Source: Cyclobacteriaceae bacterium (GTDB taxonomy: Bacteria; Bacteroidota; Bacteroidia; Cytophagales; Cyclobacteriaceae). Taken from it: a stretch of DNA of 64,000 nt. The stretch spans positions 269,325-333,324 of the forward strand of contig JAHBTY010000003.1 in NCBI GenBank assembly GCA_019638355.1, given 5' to 3'. A program made the translations under genes and the position numbers. The notes under the pieces were generated by a model, which worked only from the letters and a program-made list of their open reading frames with translations, was not told the DNA's origin and did not search any database. Of the stretch, positions 37,271-59,262 are shown piece after piece (position 1 is the first letter of the stretch; each line of letters starts with the position of its first letter).

Positions 37271-37426
37271 ATGCTGATCATTGTTTTACTTATTTCAATC
37301 TCGCTCACTATAGCCATTGTATTTCTGGCGGCCTTTGTGTGGAGTATGCACAGCGGCCAGTTTGATGATACCGATGGCCCATCGGTGCGGATGCTTTTTG
37401 AAGACAAAAAGAAAAAAGATTTGTAA
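37271..37426 (+). CDS. ccoS: cbb3-type cytochrome oxidase assembly protein CcoS
   Basis: The ATG at 37271 opens a 51-residue ORF: a single membrane helix (about residues 3-23) ending in 'FVWSMHSGQFDDTDGPSVRM' and a Lys-rich tail. This 'W-x-x-x-x-G-Q-F-D-D-x-x-x-P' pattern is the CcoS signature; the protein is needed for cofactor insertion into cbb3 oxidase. It lies 3 bp after ccoI, its usual partner. The terminal oxidase subunits are not in this window, so they must be elsewhere. Confidence 0.93.
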   Translation: MLIIVLLISISLTIAIVFLAAFVWSMHSGQFDDTDGPSVRMLFEDKKKKDL

Positions 37427-48760: not shown

Positions 48761-50263
48761 ATGGGTATTCGCTCTTTGCTCGCCAGGCCTTTTGCAAATT
48801 ACATTGCCGGCCAAACCAAAAAATGGTCGTTACGGCCAGGTTATTATCAGACACAAACACTTGAACAACTTGTTTTTGCAGCCCGGCCTACCCAATTTGG
48901 GCGCGATCATGGGTTTGATGGAATCAACTCATACAATGATTTTAAAAAGCAAGTACCCATTCGCGATTATGAAGACCTGAAGCCCTACATTGAAAAAGTA
49001 TTGAAGGGCCAACCCGATGTGTTGTGGCCAGGCAAGCCTGCTTACTTTGCTAAGACTTCGGGCACTACATCAGGCACCAAATATATTCCTATCTCCAAAG
49101 AGTCGGCACCCGGTCATTTTATCAGCGCGCGTAATGCAACTTTAAGTTATGTGCATGAAACCGGCAATGCTTCCTTTCTGGATGGCAACCTGATTTTTCT
49201 TTCCGGTAGCCCTGAGTTAGATGAAATAGCGGGTATTAAAACGGGAAGACTTTCAGGCATCAGCAATCACATGGTACCTGGTTTTTTGCGAACTAATCAG
49301 AAGCCAAGCTATGCTACCAATTGTATTGAAGATTGGGAAGAAAAATTGGAAAAGATTATTGATGAAACACTTCGCGCGAACATGACGCTGATTTCGGGCA
49401 TACCCCCGTGGGCGCAAATGTATTTCGATCGGATTGTGGCGCGCACCGGTAAGAAGGTAAAAGATGTGTTTCCCAACTTTTCGGTGTTTGTATATGGCGG
49501 TGTAAACTTTGAGCCCTATCGCGCCAAGCTGTTTGATACCATAGGGAAGCAAATTGATTCGATTGAAACCTACCCGGCATCAGAAGGTTTTATTGCATAC
49601 CAGGATTCGCAACATGCAGAAGGCCTGCTCATGCTACTCAACAATGGAATTTTTTATGAGTTTATTCCGGCTGATGAATATTTTACTGAGAATCCGCGCA
49701 GGCTATCTATTGAAGAAGTTGAGTTGGAAAAAAATTATGCATTGATTATTAATAGCAATGCAGGCTTGTGGGGTTATTCTATTGGGGATATGGTAAAGTT
49801 TGTTTCAAAAAATCCATATCGGTTGGTAGTGTCGGGCAGGATAAAACATTTTATTTCGGCTTTTGGCGAGCACGTAATTGGTGAAGAAGTAGAAAAAGCA
49901 ATGAAGTTTACCATGCAGAAATTTCCGGAAGCAGAGTTGGTAGAATTTACTGTTGCTCCGAATGTAACTCCTGCCGAAGGGTTGCCTCATCACGAGTGGT
50001 TAATCGAGTTTGCCAATCCGCCAAAAGAGCTCGATGCATTTGCCTTGGAATTGGATAACCAATTGCGCGGTTTGAATGTTTATTACGATGACTTGATTAC
50101 CGGTAATATTTTGCGAACGCTTAAAATTACTTTGCTTAAGCGAAATGCATTTATTGAATACATGAAATCGCAAGGAAAGCTGGGTGGGCAAAATAAAGTG
50201 CCCCGACTAAGTAATGATAGAAAGATTGCGGATGAGATTGGTATTTTGAAGTTTGATTTATGA
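48761..50263 (+). CDS. GH3-family adenylate-forming enzyme
   Basis: The 500-residue cytoplasmic protein belongs to the GH3 (auxin-responsive promoter) family of the acyl-adenylate superfamily. The ATP-binding motif 'AKTSGTTSGTKYIPIS' (about residue 100) is intact, and 'FVYGGVNFEPYR', 'ETYPASEGF' and 'GYSIGDMVKF' fit the further adenylation motifs. Plant members conjugate amino acids to hormones; bacterial members are widespread in Bacteroidota and their substrates are unknown. Its stop codon is the first base triplet of an inverted-repeat element carrying a four-helix-bundle gene. Confidence 0.92.
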   Translation: MGIRSLLARPFANYIAGQTKKWSLRPGYYQTQTLEQLVFAARPTQFGRDHGFDGINSYNDFKKQVPIRDYEDLKPYIEKVLKGQPDVLWPGKPAYFAKTSGTTSGTKYIPISKESAPGHFISARNATLSYVHETGNASFLDGNLIFLSGSPELDEIAGIKTGRLSGISNHMVPGFLRTNQKPSYATNCIEDWEEKLEKIIDETLRANMTLISGIPPWAQMYFDRIVARTGKKVKDVFPNFSVFVYGGVNFEPYRAKLFDTIGKQIDSIETYPASEGFIAYQDSQHAEGLLMLLNNGIFYEFIPADEYFTENPRRLSIEEVELEKNYALIINSNAGLWGYSIGDMVKFVSKNPYRLVVSGRIKHFISAFGEHVIGEEVEKAMKFTMQKFPEAELVEFTVAPNVTPAEGLPHHEWLIEFANPPKELDAFALELDNQLRGLNVYYDDLITGNILRTLKITLLKRNAFIEYMKSQGKLGGQNKVPRLSNDRKIADEIGILKFDL

Positions 50264-50685
50264 TTAGTGATTTTAGATTTTAAACGGAGTTACTATGACA
50301 AACAAAGAACTTGAAAGCAGATTGATTGATTTTTCAGTTTTGATAATTAGACTGATAAATGAACTTCCCGAAGATCGTGTTGTAAATCATCTTACGGGAC
50401 AGCTCTTGAGATATACAACTTCACCTGCCTTGAATTATGGTGAAGCTTTGGGTGCAGAATCAAAAAAAGACTTTGTTCACAAACTTGGGATAGTGTTGAA
50501 AGAACTTCGGGAGTCGTATAATTGCCTGAGAATACTTTCTGGAGCAGGTTACCTGCAGGCCGAACATTCCACATTAAAAGAATGTAATGAGTTGAGTTCA
50601 ATCTTTGTGAAGTCAATTGAAACAACCAAACGTAATATGGAGTAGTTCCTCAAATCAACAATCCTAAATCTAAACTCACTAATCA
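50261..50685 (+). mobile_element. IVS-like element 1: inverted repeats flanking a four-helix-bundle gene
   Basis: The left arm at 50261-50280 and right arm at 50666-50685 are 20-bp inverted repeats with 19 matches (left arm reads TGATTAGTGA then TTTTAGATTT; the odd pair is 50271 with 50675). They enclose the gene at 50295-50645. The left arm begins with the GH3 stop codon TGA and the right arm ends 8 bp before the dxr start, so the element fills the whole intergenic gap. In RNA the arms would form a long stem, as in 23S rRNA intervening sequences processed by RNase III, which encode related proteins. Mobility is an inference. Confidence 0.6.
50295..50645 (+). CDS. Four-helix-bundle protein (23S rRNA IVS-protein-like), copy 1
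   Basis: The 116-residue protein has the helix pattern and motifs of the IVS-encoded four-helix-bundle family: 'LIDFSVLIIRLINELP' (helix 1), 'TGQLLRYTTSPALNYGEALGA' (helix 2, with R-x-x-x-S-x-x-x-N-x-x-E) and 'FVHKLGIVLKELRESYNCLRIL' (helix 3). Family members form pentameric barrels; their function is unknown, and the Avd protein of diversity-generating retroelements is a distant relative. No reverse transcriptase or variable repeat is nearby. The gene is enclosed by inverted repeats and inserted between GH3 and dxr. Confidence 0.88.
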   Translation: MTNKELESRLIDFSVLIIRLINELPEDRVVNHLTGQLLRYTTSPALNYGEALGAESKKDFVHKLGIVLKELRESYNCLRILSGAGYLQAEHSTLKECNELSSIFVKSIETTKRNME

Positions 50686-50693
50686 CAAGTCAA

Positions 50694-51854
50694 TTGCAGT
50701 CTGATAAAAAGAAAATAGCCATCCTCGGCTCTACCGGTTCCATCGGCACGCAAGCGCTCGAAGTTGTTGCAGCACATCCCGATGTGTTTGAAGTGGAGGT
50801 TTTAACTGCGCAGCGTAATGCTGATTTACTTATTGAACAATCTGTTAAGTTTAAACCCAATGCCGTTGTTATTGGAGATGATGCACACTACGAAAAAGTT
50901 AAAGCAGCTTTAATTCCGTTGGACATTAAAGTTTATGCTGGCGAAAATGCATTGGCTTCGGTGGTGCAGATGGAATCTATTGATCTGGTGCTTACAGCCC
51001 TGGTGGGTTATTCAGGTTTAAAGCCAACCATCAAAGCCATTGAGGCTGGCAAAAATATTGCCTTGGCAAACAAAGAAACGTTGGTGGTGGCAGGCGAATT
51101 AATTACGCGTCTTGCCCGCGAAAAAGGTGTTAATATTTATCCGGTTGATTCAGAGCACTCAGCCATTTTTCAATGTTTGGTGGGTGAGTTTCATAATCCG
51201 ATTGAAAAAATTATTCTAACTGCATCGGGTGGCCCTTTTAGAGGCAAAAAGAAAAATGAATTAGGGAACATAACCAAAGCGCAGGCACTTAAGCATCCCA
51301 ACTGGACGATGGGGGCCAAAGTAACCATCGATTCGGCTTCGCTTATGAACAAAGGCCTGGAAGTAATTGAAGCAAAGTGGCTTTTTGGGCTAAAACCTGA
51401 ACAAGTGGAGGTTGTGGTACATCCGCAATCCATCATTCACTCACTCATTCAATTTGAAGATGGTTCCATTAAAGCGCAACTGGGCCTGCCCGATATGCGT
51501 TTACCCATTCAATTTGCGATGAGTTATCCCAATAGAATTAAGAGCAATTTCCCAAGATTCGACTTCACCCAGTATCCCGCTCTTACTTTTGAAAAGCCCG
51601 ATACCGAAACTTTTCGTAATCTTGCACTCGCATTTGAGGCGTTGGGGCGAGGTGGTAACATGCCGTGCGTATTGAATGCAGCCAACGAAATTGCCGTACA
51701 GGAATTTTTACAGGATCGGATTGGATTCTTACAAATGTCGGACGTAGTGGAACAATGTCTGAGCAAAATAAAGTATGTAGCCAATCCTGTCTTTGAGGAT
51801 TACGTGAATACGGATAAAGAAACGAGAATTAAAGCCAAAGAACTGATTAACTGA
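50694..51854 (+). CDS. dxr: 1-deoxy-D-xylulose 5-phosphate reductoisomerase
   Basis: The 386-residue enzyme converts DXP to 2-C-methyl-D-erythritol 4-phosphate with NADPH, the committed step of the MEP isoprenoid pathway. A TTG is the only start that gives the canonical N-terminus (KKKIAILGSTGSIGTQALEVV). The NADPH site GSTGSIG, the metal/substrate segment 'PVDSEHSAIFQCL' and 'TASGGPFRG' are intact. The TTG lies 8 bp after the inverted-repeat element. The stop overlaps the start of rseP (TGATG), so the two are coupled. Confidence 0.97.
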   Translation: MQSDKKKIAILGSTGSIGTQALEVVAAHPDVFEVEVLTAQRNADLLIEQSVKFKPNAVVIGDDAHYEKVKAALIPLDIKVYAGENALASVVQMESIDLVLTALVGYSGLKPTIKAIEAGKNIALANKETLVVAGELITRLAREKGVNIYPVDSEHSAIFQCLVGEFHNPIEKIILTASGGPFRGKKKNELGNITKAQALKHPNWTMGAKVTIDSASLMNKGLEVIEAKWLFGLKPEQVEVVVHPQSIIHSLIQFEDGSIKAQLGLPDMRLPIQFAMSYPNRIKSNFPRFDFTQYPALTFEKPDTETFRNLALAFEALGRGGNMPCVLNAANEIAVQEFLQDRIGFLQMSDVVEQCLSKIKYVANPVFEDYVNTDKETRIKAKELIN

Positions 51855-56296: not shown

Positions 56297-58753
56297 ATGT
56301 TCAAATCGCTAGCAATAACCCCTATGGTTCAGGAAGATTCTGATGAAATGATTCAGCTCATAAACCCCGAACAGGAATCTGATATCAAGCCCGAAGATCT
56401 TCCGGAAGAACTTTCGATCCTACCAATCAAGAATACGGTTTTGTTTCCGGGTGTGGTTATTCCCATAACGGTAACACGTCAAAAATCAATTCGCTTAATT
56501 AAGAAGGCGTATCAAGGCAATCGTATTATTGGTGTAATCGCACAAAAAAATAAACAGGCCGAAGAACCCGGCATGGAAGATTTGTATCGATTTGGCACCG
56601 TAGCCCGCATTATTAAAATGTTGGTATTGCCCGATGGTAATACCACCATTATCATTCAAGGTAAAAACCGGTTTCAAATTCGCGAGTTTGTTCAAGATGA
56701 GCCGTTTATGACAGCTCGCATCGAATTGCAAGCGGAGCCTGCACTTGATCTGGAAAGTAAAGAGGTAAAGGCTTTGGTGCAATCGTTAAAAGATGCAGCC
56801 ACAAAAATTTTAAGGCTTAATCCTGAAATTCCGCAAGAGGCACAAGTAGCATTGGATAACATTCAAAGCACGGGGTTTCTGATTCACTTTCTTTCATCTA
56901 ACCTGAATGTAGATGTAGCCGAGAAACAAAAAATTCTGGAAACCAATAATATTATTGATCGCGGCACGCTGCTATTGCAATACATGCTGAAGGAAATTCA
57001 GATGTTGGAGATCAAGCATGAAATCCAGAAAAAAGTACATACTGATATTGATCAGCAACAGCGCGATTATTTTCTGCGTCAGCAAATTAGGGTGTTACAG
57101 GATGAATTGGGCTTTGATGGACCCGACAAAGAAATTGAAAAACTGCGCAAGCGCGGAGCAGAAAAAAAATGGCCAAAAGCTGCGGCCGATCATTTCAATA
57201 AAGAGTTGGATAAACTTCAACGTGTAAATCCGCAAGCACCGGAGTTTCCGATTACCATGAACTATGTAGAGTTCATGCTCGATTTACCCTGGCAAGAATA
57301 TACCACCGATGACTTTGATTTGAAACGGGCGCGAAAAATTTTAGACAAAGATCATTTTGGTTTAGAGAAAGTAAAGAACCGAATTTTAGAATACTTAGCG
57401 GTGCTCAAGTTGAAACAAGACATGAAAGGACCGATCCTTTGTTTATACGGGCCACCTGGTGTGGGTAAAACTTCGTTGGGAAAATCGATAGCTAAATCGT
57501 TGCAACGTTATTACATCCGCATGTCGTTGGGTGGTGTGCATGATGAAGCTGAGATTCGCGGGCATCGTAAAACGTATATTGGTGCCATGCCTGGAAAAAT
57601 TTTGCAGAACATCAAGAAAGCAAAATCATCGAACCCGGTTTTTATTTTAGATGAAATTGATAAGGTACGTTCTGATTTTCGGGGTGATCCTTCATCGGCC
57701 TTGCTTGAAGTATTAGACCCGGAACAGAACAATGCTTTTGGCGATAATTACCTTGAAGTAGAATACGATTTATCGAAAGTACTTTTTATTGCAACCGCCA
57801 ACTCGTTAGATACCATTCATCCCGCGTTGCGCGATCGCATGGAGATCATTGAACTAACCGGCTACACCGTTGAAGAAAAACTGCAGATTGCTATAAAGCA
57901 CCTTGTACCCAAGCAATTAGCCGAACATGGTTTGAAAGCGAAGGATGTTAAGTTTAGTAAAGAAGCACTATTGAAAGTAATAGAAGCCTACACCCGCGAA
58001 TCGGGTGTGCGAAACTTAGAACGAAAAATTGGTTCGGTAGTGCGCAGCATTGCCAAATCGGTAGCAATGGAAGAAGAATTTGATAAAGACATAACACCTG
58101 CTTACGTAATAAAAGTATTAGGCGCTGAAATTTTTGATGAAGAACTTTATCAAGGTAACGAAATAGCCGGAGTGGTAACGGGTTTGGCGTGGACGCAAGT
58201 GGGTGGAGATATTCTGTTTGTAGAATCAAGTTTAAGTCGCGGTAAAGGTCAGCTAACAATTTCCGGCCAGTTAGGCGATGTAATGAAAGAATCGGCTGTG
58301 GCTGCACTTTCCTATCTCAAATCAAATGCAGAAGCATTGGGCATCGACCATCGGTTGTTTCAGCAATACGATTTACACATTCACGTTCCTGCCGGTGCAG
58401 TACCCAAAGACGGACCATCTGCTGGTATTACCATGCTTACCTCGCTGGCTTCCATTTTTACACAACGCAAAGTAAAAGATAAATTAGCGATGACGGGTGA
58501 AATAACGTTACGTGGAAAAGTGTTGCCGGTGGGTGGTATCAAAGAAAAAATACTCGCAGCCAAACGCAGTGGAATAAAAGAGATTATTCTGAGCGAAAAG
58601 AACAAACGCGATATTCTTGAAATTGAGAAGACCTACATTAAAGGCCTTACGTTTCATTATGTAACTTCCGTAGAAGAAGTTTTAAAAATCGCTTTGCTGA
58701 AAGATAAAGTAGCCAAGCCGGTGGAGTTTGTATTGCAGGAGGCGAAACAGTAG
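56297..58753 (+). CDS. lon: ATP-dependent protease Lon
   Basis: The start at 56297 ([18 protein letters not shown]) or the ATG at 56324 gives about 818 or 809 residues, the usual Lon length; the longer frame from 56162 would overlap the divergent OmpA gene start and adds an unlikely basic N-terminus. The LonN substrate domain (from '[18 protein letters not shown]'), the AAA+ module (Walker A '[13 protein letters not shown]', Walker B 'FILDEIDK') and the Ser-Lys protease domain (Ser in '[11 protein letters not shown]', Lys in '[13 protein letters not shown]') are all intact. It degrades damaged and regulatory proteins. Its TAG stop marks the left edge of a second IVS-like element. Confidence 0.97.
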
Positions 58754-59262
58754 CCAGTTACCAGTTACCGGTGTTGAAGGATTAAAAATTTGGGTATGAA
58801 AAGTTATAGAGAACTTGATATTTATAATGATTCAAAACGACTTGCTATAGAGATTCACAAAATGTCTTTGTCACTTCCAAAATTTGAATTGTATGAAGAA
58901 GGCAGTCAGGTGAGACGTTCAGCTAAAGCCGTTACATCCGCTATCGTTGAAGGTTATGGAAGAAAAAGATATAAAGCAGACCTTATTAAACATTTGGTTT
59001 ATTCGCAGGCTGAATGCGATGAAACTATTTTGCATTTAGATTTTTTACACGAAACTCAATCACTTCAGGATTCCTCAGTCTATAAGAAGTTACATGGCGA
59101 ATACGATGTTTTGAGTAAAAGAATAAATAAATTCATACAATGGGTTGAGTCAAACTGGAACGATTTTGACAACTCTAAATAATTAAGACCTTAATCTACT
59201 GGCAACCGGAAACAGGCAACTGGTAACCAATAAAATCATTAAATTTTAACTACCGGCAACTG
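58754..59262 (+). mobile_element. IVS-like element 2: degenerate inverted repeats flanking a four-helix-bundle gene
   Basis: The left arm (58754-58772) is a tandem of CCAGTTACC units; GTTACCAGTT (58757-58766) has a perfect inverted copy at 59218-59227, and CAGTTACCGGTG (58762-58773) has an inverted copy at 59250-59262 with two differences. Further related units occupy 59199-59228. The left arm begins at the base after the lon stop codon and the last right copy ends 2 bp before the hslU ATG, so the element fills the gap, as element 1 does between GH3 and dxr. The arm sequence is unlike element 1. Confidence 0.55.
58796..59182 (+). CDS. Four-helix-bundle protein (23S rRNA IVS-protein-like), copy 2
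   Basis: The ATG at 58796 gives 128 residues (a TTG two codons earlier is ignored). The protein carries the family motifs more clearly than copy 1: 'YRELDIYNDSKRLAIEIHKMS' (helix 1), 'EGSQVRRSAKAVTSAIVEGYGRK' (helix 2, with the conserved R-R-S...S-I-x-E-G) and 'LIKHLVYSQAECDETILHLDFL' (helix 3). It belongs to the same family as copy 1 but is only distantly similar, so the two are not a recent duplication. It is enclosed by inverted repeats between lon and hslU. Function unknown. Confidence 0.92.
   Translation: MKSYRELDIYNDSKRLAIEIHKMSLSLPKFELYEEGSQVRRSAKAVTSAIVEGYGRKRYKADLIKHLVYSQAECDETILHLDFLHETQSLQDSSVYKKLHGEYDVLSKRINKFIQWVESNWNDFDNSK

Follow-up and report, generated by a model that had tools for sequence, protein, structure and literature searches.

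Inverted heptad arrays around a PF05635 four-helix-bundle gene at a GH3-dxr operon junction, and their recurrence around genes of this family in many phyla

In the analysed window, a 64,000-nt stretch of a Cyclobacteriaceae genome, a GH3-family gene is followed by dxr, and the whole gap between the two is occupied by a PF05635/TIGR02436 gene and its flanking arms (Table 1). The arms form an inverted repeat, in which TGATTAGTGATTTTAGATTT at 50261-50280 agrees with the reverse complement of 50666-50685 at 19/20 positions, and which lengthens outward to 28 nt (arm cores of Table 1, 25/28, 89%), giving an arm-to-arm length of 441 nt. The GH3 stop TGA supplies the first bases of the 20-nt left arm, the TTG start of dxr lies 8 bp past the end of the 20-nt right arm, and 14 nt separate the left arm from the start codon of the enclosed gene. 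Each arm is built from about five degenerate 7-nt repeats in tandem. The enclosed ORF (116 aa, hereafter the IVP gene) was matched by the PF05635 profile at 46.6 bits (cut-off 33.8) and by TIGR02436 (four helix bundle protein) at 71.2 bits, also above cut-off. On recomputation, the 19/20 repeat, its placement on the GH3 stop codon and 8 bp before dxr, and the intervening sequence (IVS)-type four-helix-bundle gene between the arms were all found as the initial annotation had described them.

Table 1. Features of the two PF05635 elements in the window and the neighbours of the first (window positions).
Feature	Position	Strand	Basis or remark
GH3-family gene, upstream neighbour	48761..50263	+	last codons and stop inside left array
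Left array, 7-nt repeats, TGATTAG theme	50238..50282		arm core 50253-50280 pairs with right arm; includes GH3 stop 50261-50263
PF05635/TIGR02436 four-helix-bundle (IVP) gene, 116 aa	50295..50645	+	profile matches, fold, dN/dS ~0.08
Right array, 7-nt repeats, inverted relative to left array	50653..50692 (start about)		arm core 50666-50693
dxr (DXP reductoisomerase), TTG start, downstream neighbour	50694..51854	+	ORF and profile
Left heptad array, CCAGTTA theme, second window element	58748..58772		array scan
Second PF05635 gene of the window	58796..59182	+	profile search
Right heptad array of second window element	59198..59227		array scan

The IVP structure predicted by AlphaFold has four helices (mean pLDDT 96), and the nearest solved folds retrieved by Foldseek were 2rld (S23 family, B. 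thetaiotaomicron, E 6e-5) and then 2gsc (Xcc0516, E 3e-3), each with five chains; Xcc0516 is described as a homopentamer, and PF05635 as a widespread family with solved structures and no known function, in the available part of PMC4990558. Avd of diversity-generating retroelements (DGRs) is the same kind of four-helix bundle, with 13-18% identity to the chains listed, and Avd and the DGR reverse-transcriptase complex (4dwl, 8ub7) were retrieved at TM ~0.7 and E ~0.2, values that some unrelated bundles also reached; the portion of PMC10053308 at hand regards Avd and PF05635 as likely homologues. Inspection by eye of the ORFs of 46.0-54.5 kb recognised no DGR reverse transcriptase and no template and variable repeats.

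The inverted-repeat score of the GH3-dxr gene was 20.5 (one scoring scheme), the highest of the 51 window genes, the runner-up being the window's other PF05635 gene at 11.5. Against a genome background of 464 kb (the window plus 20 stretches of 20 kb, out of 4.49 Mb), the gene ranked first of 372, and a score of at least 13 was reached by 5/372, the four besides the GH3-dxr gene having arms without a heptad array by eye. Period-7 arrays scoring at least 10 (mismatch penalty 1) numbered three in the 64-kb window, all beside its two PF05635 genes; stricter array scoring of the window listed no period-7 array, and Tandem Repeats Finder at its lowest score reported one other short period-7 row in the window, at 37401-37419. 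The host genome holds five PF05635 genes, each with inverted heptad arms of its own unit (GTAGGCA, GTCGATG, GGTTTCT, CCAGTTA and TGATTAG) and, on one side or both, a period-7 array scoring 10 or more; the second window element stands between two co-directional genes.

The arms were then sought at 180 PF05635 loci from the host genome, its genus and its phylum, taken as the best-scoring profile matches with no random draw (184 loci, of which 181 were kept after loss of L024, L107 and L196, and 180 used). Inverted arms scoring at least 13 were present at 86 of the 180 (own genome 4/5, genus 40/86, phylum 42/89), compared with 4/360 mispaired flanks, 1/180 Markov flanks and 1/51 window genes, the last being the GH3-dxr gene itself; the family-wide flanking inverted repeats in Bacteroidota, for which the initial annotation had proposed a search, thus recur, and strong arms are absent at about half of the genus and phylum loci. 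Within the subfamily of the GH3-dxr IVP, 34/51 loci passed, including the GH3-dxr element (L243) and three same-place orthologs (51/59 loci used, no ORF having been found in eight). The unit core in this subfamily is GAAT or GATT rather than AG by eye, and an inner motif, AACAAGGAA, out of heptad phase, is common to the arms of L248, L253, L255 and L276 from different genomes.

A GTDB scan extended the search beyond the phylum, and among the best 80 of at least 551 named loci arms were found at 21/37 in Bacteroidota and 32/43 in other phyla (mispaired controls 3/111 and 4/129, respectively), with a period-7 or period-8 array of at least 10 in 66/80 and period 9 in two. The non-Bacteroidota loci among these best 80 include Proteobacteria, Planctomycetes, Nitrospirae, Elusimicrobia, Clostridia, candidate phyla and a Methanophagales MAG, the phylum labels being those of the records and many loci being MAGs. 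In contigs of a viral collection, arms passed at 31/39 distinct loci (39 of 48 kept; those with a short ORF, an identical gene start or a short flank were dropped). The contigs of L422-L469, which carry PF05635 genes with heptad arms, are classed as viral and may be phage or host DNA. Paired PF05635 genes ~1.6 kb apart were seen in G018:C36, G004:C448, G005:C6, G079:C6 and G107:C14. The GH3-dxr element is one copy of a larger, recurrent architecture that occurs, by the labels of the records, in many phyla, in sense orientation at stop-start operon junctions.

Orientation was counted for the 92 of 94 elements (inverted-repeat score at least 12.5) that had both neighbours, and was 84 ++, 3 -- and 5 mixed (84 vs 3, p ~1e-21). 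Among the best 80 of at least 551 named loci, of which 77 were entered and 69 counted, the figures were 31 ++, 1 -- and 3 mixed for Bacteroidota and 22 ++, 1 -- and 11 mixed for other phyla; in the host genome, both neighbours were co-directional for 189/359 genes and 40/82 small genes. The sense orientation speaks for an mRNA context and fits an element living in mRNA. Since most PF05635 genes whose arms are weak or absent are sense as well (33/38 at score below 10, and 32/38), the orientation belongs to the gene family and may arise because these genes depend on read-through from the operon for expression. In 74/92 elements the start of the left arm lies at most 10 nt from where the upstream ORF ends, so that the stop-codon position claimed for the GH3-dxr copy is the usual one, and in 52/92 no more than 10 nt separate the end of the right arm from the following ORF. 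Stops in all three frames were found in 54/188 arms read inward (mean 21.7 in 200 shuffles, highest 35) and in 22 read outward.

These counts bear on a DNA transposon or MITE with terminal inverted repeats and a transposase acting in trans, a reading that would account for the inverted ends, the gene-less derivatives and the presence or absence at given sites described below, and that is nevertheless judged improbable. A ratio of 84 ++ to 3 -- is unexpected for DNA insertion without strong selection; the ORFs of at least 60 aa between the GH3-dxr arms are the IVP gene and one 77-aa antisense frame, with none of transposase size in the ORF list of the element; and the arms of different elements have period and polarity in common, mostly not sequence. 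Repeats common to the copies, as expected of an insertion sequence or MITE, are not seen in the host genome, where five copies have five themes; the arms are locus-specific heptad arrays, not a conserved terminal repeat.

The repeats were characterised by period, sequence and unit number. Of periods 3-15, period 7 was the strongest at the 180 loci (42-43% of flanks at or above 10, compared with 6% of control flanks), with further peaks at period 14, the harmonic of 7, and, more weakly, at period 8. The C content of the arms was 9% on the inward strand. Median unit numbers were 5.3 upstream and 4.7 downstream, values influenced by the detection threshold. Similarity between the left and right arm of an element is far higher than between arms taken from different elements. 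A unit-order comparison (real 18.2, permuted 15.8, 57/66) was set aside as evidence, being biased because the real arms had been chosen as the best match.

Repeat theme was compared with protein identity for 94 of the 180 loci (inverted-repeat score at least 12.5), and in non-syntenic pairs the mean repeat cosine rose from 0.11-0.12 at 20-50% identity to 0.24 at 50-60% and 0.35 at 60-80% (17 pairs), with a Mantel r of 0.18 that none of 2000 permutations equalled. Among the 132 of 180 elements with period 7 (111) or period 8 (21), the period label changed 7 times on the protein tree, compared with 19.8 times when shuffled (0/500 as low), and one clade of ten proteins (SH-aLRT 99%) was entirely of period 8; the tree was built from few columns, and the GH3-dxr protein (L005) lies on a very long branch at an unsure position. 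Repeat sequence and length associate with protein phylogeny, and protein and arms therefore go together in evolution. Because repeat type follows protein type, the comparison suggests that the protein reads the repeats, although co-inheritance of gene and arms could yield part of the correlation.

An IVS proper, the view taken in the initial annotation, in which the arms would pair in the operon mRNA, RNase III would cut and a 0.4-kb IVP RNA would leave or separate, was weighed on the arm mismatches. The + strand folds with the arms as its terminal stem (-116.4 kcal/mol, z -3.29, 1/100 shuffles as good), which, with the sense orientation in operons and the 28-bp stem, S23p ORF and heptamers of the Coxiella IVS (PMC4990558, available part), counts in its favour. 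Against it, no excess of G:U over A:C was found in the arm mismatches of 86 elements (69 vs 79), none in a larger set of 169 arm pairs (122 vs 154, p=0.06 in the other direction), and in those 169 pairs transversions outnumbered transitions (395 vs 276). RNA-stem selection on the arms was rejected on these two rounds of the G:U test; an excised RNA stem is therefore not claimed, and an IVS proper is regarded as unlikely. The equal keeping of both arms without wobble speaks for recognition of the repeats themselves.

The comparison with known IVSs rests largely on the available part of PMC4990558, where the 428-nt C. burnetii 23S rRNA IVS is closed by a 28-bp terminal stem, is cleaved by RNase III and carries an S23p ORF preceded by the heptamer GACAGAT in two to three tandem copies, which differ from strain to strain. 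The GH3-dxr element resembles it in its stem-capable inverted arms, same-family ORF, size (441 nt) and tandem heptamers before the ORF, so that the IVS-like design of terminal inverted arms plus IVP gene given in the initial annotation holds for this copy; it differs in lying in an operon gap and in having both arms as heptad arrays of locus-specific sequence. The ORFs also differ, with purifying selection at GH3-dxr and, in the same part of PMC4990558, reductive evolution inferred for Coxiella. Of the features of a 23S IVS, stem-capable terminal inverted repeats and an IVP/S23p ORF were found and a 23S location was not; since the element lies outside rRNA, it is built like an IVS and is no member of the 23S IVSs. 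None of six short conserved 23S motifs occurred in the 80 named loci (best 80 of at least 551).

The available part of PMC11270868 also reports IVP ORFs from insertions in the 16S and 23S rRNA genes of CPR bacteria, with no mention there of inverted, tandem or heptamer repeats. Heptamers beside an IVP gene were mentioned, among the papers compared and in the parts at hand, for the Coxiella IVS only, without generalisation (PMC4990558), and the literature searched (titles and abstract starts, with few subscription journals or preprints) yielded no report linking PF05635 genes to tandem-repeat arms. TAACTGA heptamer direct repeats are known from Beggiatoaceae, Cyanobacteria and Bacteroidetes (MacGregor 2015, PMC4679880, available part), where they are intergenic, many just upstream of start codons, with one inverted case; they are like the present arrays as intergenic 7-nt tandem repeats, and unlike them in being one fixed heptamer in direct orientation. 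The words 'intervening' and 'four helix' have no occurrences in the available text of PMC4679880, which makes no link to IVP genes.

The history of the GH3-dxr junction was followed in relatives. The element is present at the same place in four species (G000, G009, G039 and G018), with one in-frame stop in G023 and as a decayed match adjoining dxr in G002, and its arm units have changed in number and sequence between species. In G019 and two order-level relatives, dxr comes immediately or shortly after GH3 (by eye). The occupation of one place in four species goes against recent mobility of this copy. For three of the six pairs among the four species (those of G000, G009 and G039), dN/dS of the IVP gene was 0.08-0.09, synonymous sites being saturated in comparison with G018; this copy is old and, on these substitution ratios, under purifying selection. 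At the junction of G013, G024 and G008 (L046, L047 and L048), a small two-gene module of a nucleotidyltransferase and a HEPN-like gene (MNT-HEPN-like, by eye) stands in place of the IVP element, as if the gap were a docking place.

Across the 94 sampled elements, all 22 protein pairs above 80% identity had similar flanks (any flank-ORF blastp match at 1e-8), and the highest identity of a pair with unlike flanks was 70%, on which recent transposition was rejected. No near-identical copies lie at different places, recent movement is therefore not seen, and the mobility inferred at first for the GH3-dxr copy is not borne out on a recent time scale.

Turnover is visible at two other junctions, the hairpins there having been identified by eye. 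At the L003 site, the frame of the element is open in G024 and cut to 84 codons in the element-length match of G008; G039 retains both arms around a gutted gene, G013 has a gene-less hairpin with a different heptad theme, the hairpin of G009 is built of 8-nt units, and G018 (L475) has other small genes with a right heptad arm of the CCAGTAAC theme left over. At the site of the second window element (58748-59227), G039 and G018 have the gene with an open frame, G009 and G008 lack it and have gene-less hairpins with a different theme instead, G024 has a decayed stretch, and no match was found in G013. Gene-less or gutted versions of two other copies thus exist in relatives, in keeping with the IVS-like reading, and elements appear to be slowly gained, gutted or replaced at operon junctions between species.

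Outside the window, the 400 kb sampled contained gene-less arrays at 13 sites, and several looked by eye like inverted pairs; the flanking ORFs were co-directional at 11/13 and divergent at 2, with 273/380 pairs co-directional overall, and these 13 sites give no clear co-directional excess. Their frequency, together with the heptamer arrays known elsewhere (MacGregor 2015, PMC4679880, available part), is what could be said for heptads as neutral slippage products of intergenic DNA with the IVP gene incidental, an explanation held to be very improbable, given that arms associate with PF05635 genes across many phyla, that repeat length follows protein clade and that arm similarity is much higher within than between elements. 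Since the G-rich strand of either arm points inward, telomerase-like heptad addition to both ends of a break was considered, as an idea only.

One of the 13 sites, a gene-less inverted heptad hairpin (L234:18177-18292, TTAGTCC theme), fills a stop-to-start operon gap and is found at the same junction in four species (also G009, G039 and G008), with units turned over and inward polarity conserved; it is missing in G018. Genomes with a TTAGT-clade IVP (7/40) have a median of 17 TTAGT arrays compared with 3 (p=0.006; net of control, p=0.026), and theme arrays without a matching IVP occur in several genomes, the host genome included (G000 62, G009 49), so the trans link of an IVP clade to the copy number of its theme is present and weak, with large exceptions. 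G039 has the most matches of the 40 genomes to TTAGTNNTTAGTNNTTAGT at one mismatch (180; reversed control 27), an expansion of one repeat theme alongside an IVP gene of that theme (L017).

A non-mobile host regulator, an IVP that would bind its own and gene-less heptad hairpins as operators or mRNA sites and control operons, draws on this conserved hairpin, on the richness of TTAGT-clade genomes in TTAGT arrays and on the dN/dS of ~0.08. It is likewise thought unlikely, since the IVP gene is present or absent between species at the same junctions, unrelated hairpin themes occupy one site, G018 lacks a hairpin kept by four species, and many arrays have no matching IVP.

The preferred reading, which is given a little better than an even chance, is a slowly turning-over, operon-dwelling, IVS-like element with a predicted IVP ring that binds the repeats. 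An IVP gene is closely enclosed by two inverted arrays, each of about five repeats of 7 nt (8 or 9 nt in some clades), and is probably expressed from the host operon, because its start codon lies only 14 nt from the arm. The protein, which is pentameric in family members of solved structure, would bind the repeats, probably one per subunit; the unit numbers per array (5.3/4.7) are close to five, as medians shaped by the detection threshold. The bound arms may mark the element for whatever keeps or spreads it, and gene-less hairpins would be remnants or non-autonomous forms. Several observations weigh against this reading: the GH3-dxr copy behaves as a host gene would, being stable in four species and subject to purifying selection; near-identical copies at different places were not seen among the 94 sampled elements; strong arms are missing from about half of the genus and phylum loci; and gene-less theme arrays occur in genomes without a matching IVP.

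TRAP of Bacillus is a ring protein of 11 subunits that reads regularly spaced AG-containing triplet repeats, one per subunit. A repeat-reading ring is proposed for IVP by analogy only, the TRAP fold being unrelated and its subunit number and triplets differing.

More tentatively, and with a chance well short of even, IVP pentamers in general may be nucleic-acid repeat readers of clade-specific sequence and length (7, 8 or 9 nt), with about one repeat per subunit; the inverted arrays would then be the ends of an operon-dwelling element family of many bacterial phyla and an archaeal MAG, the 23S IVSs its ribosomal branch and the gene-less hairpins its non-autonomous form. The repeats give PF05635, a family without known function, a testable ligand and stoichiometry (five subunits, about five repeats), the old puzzle of the 23S rRNA intervening sequences is tied to a much larger set of operon elements, and many small tandem-repeat hairpins in Bacteroidota operon gaps may be explained.
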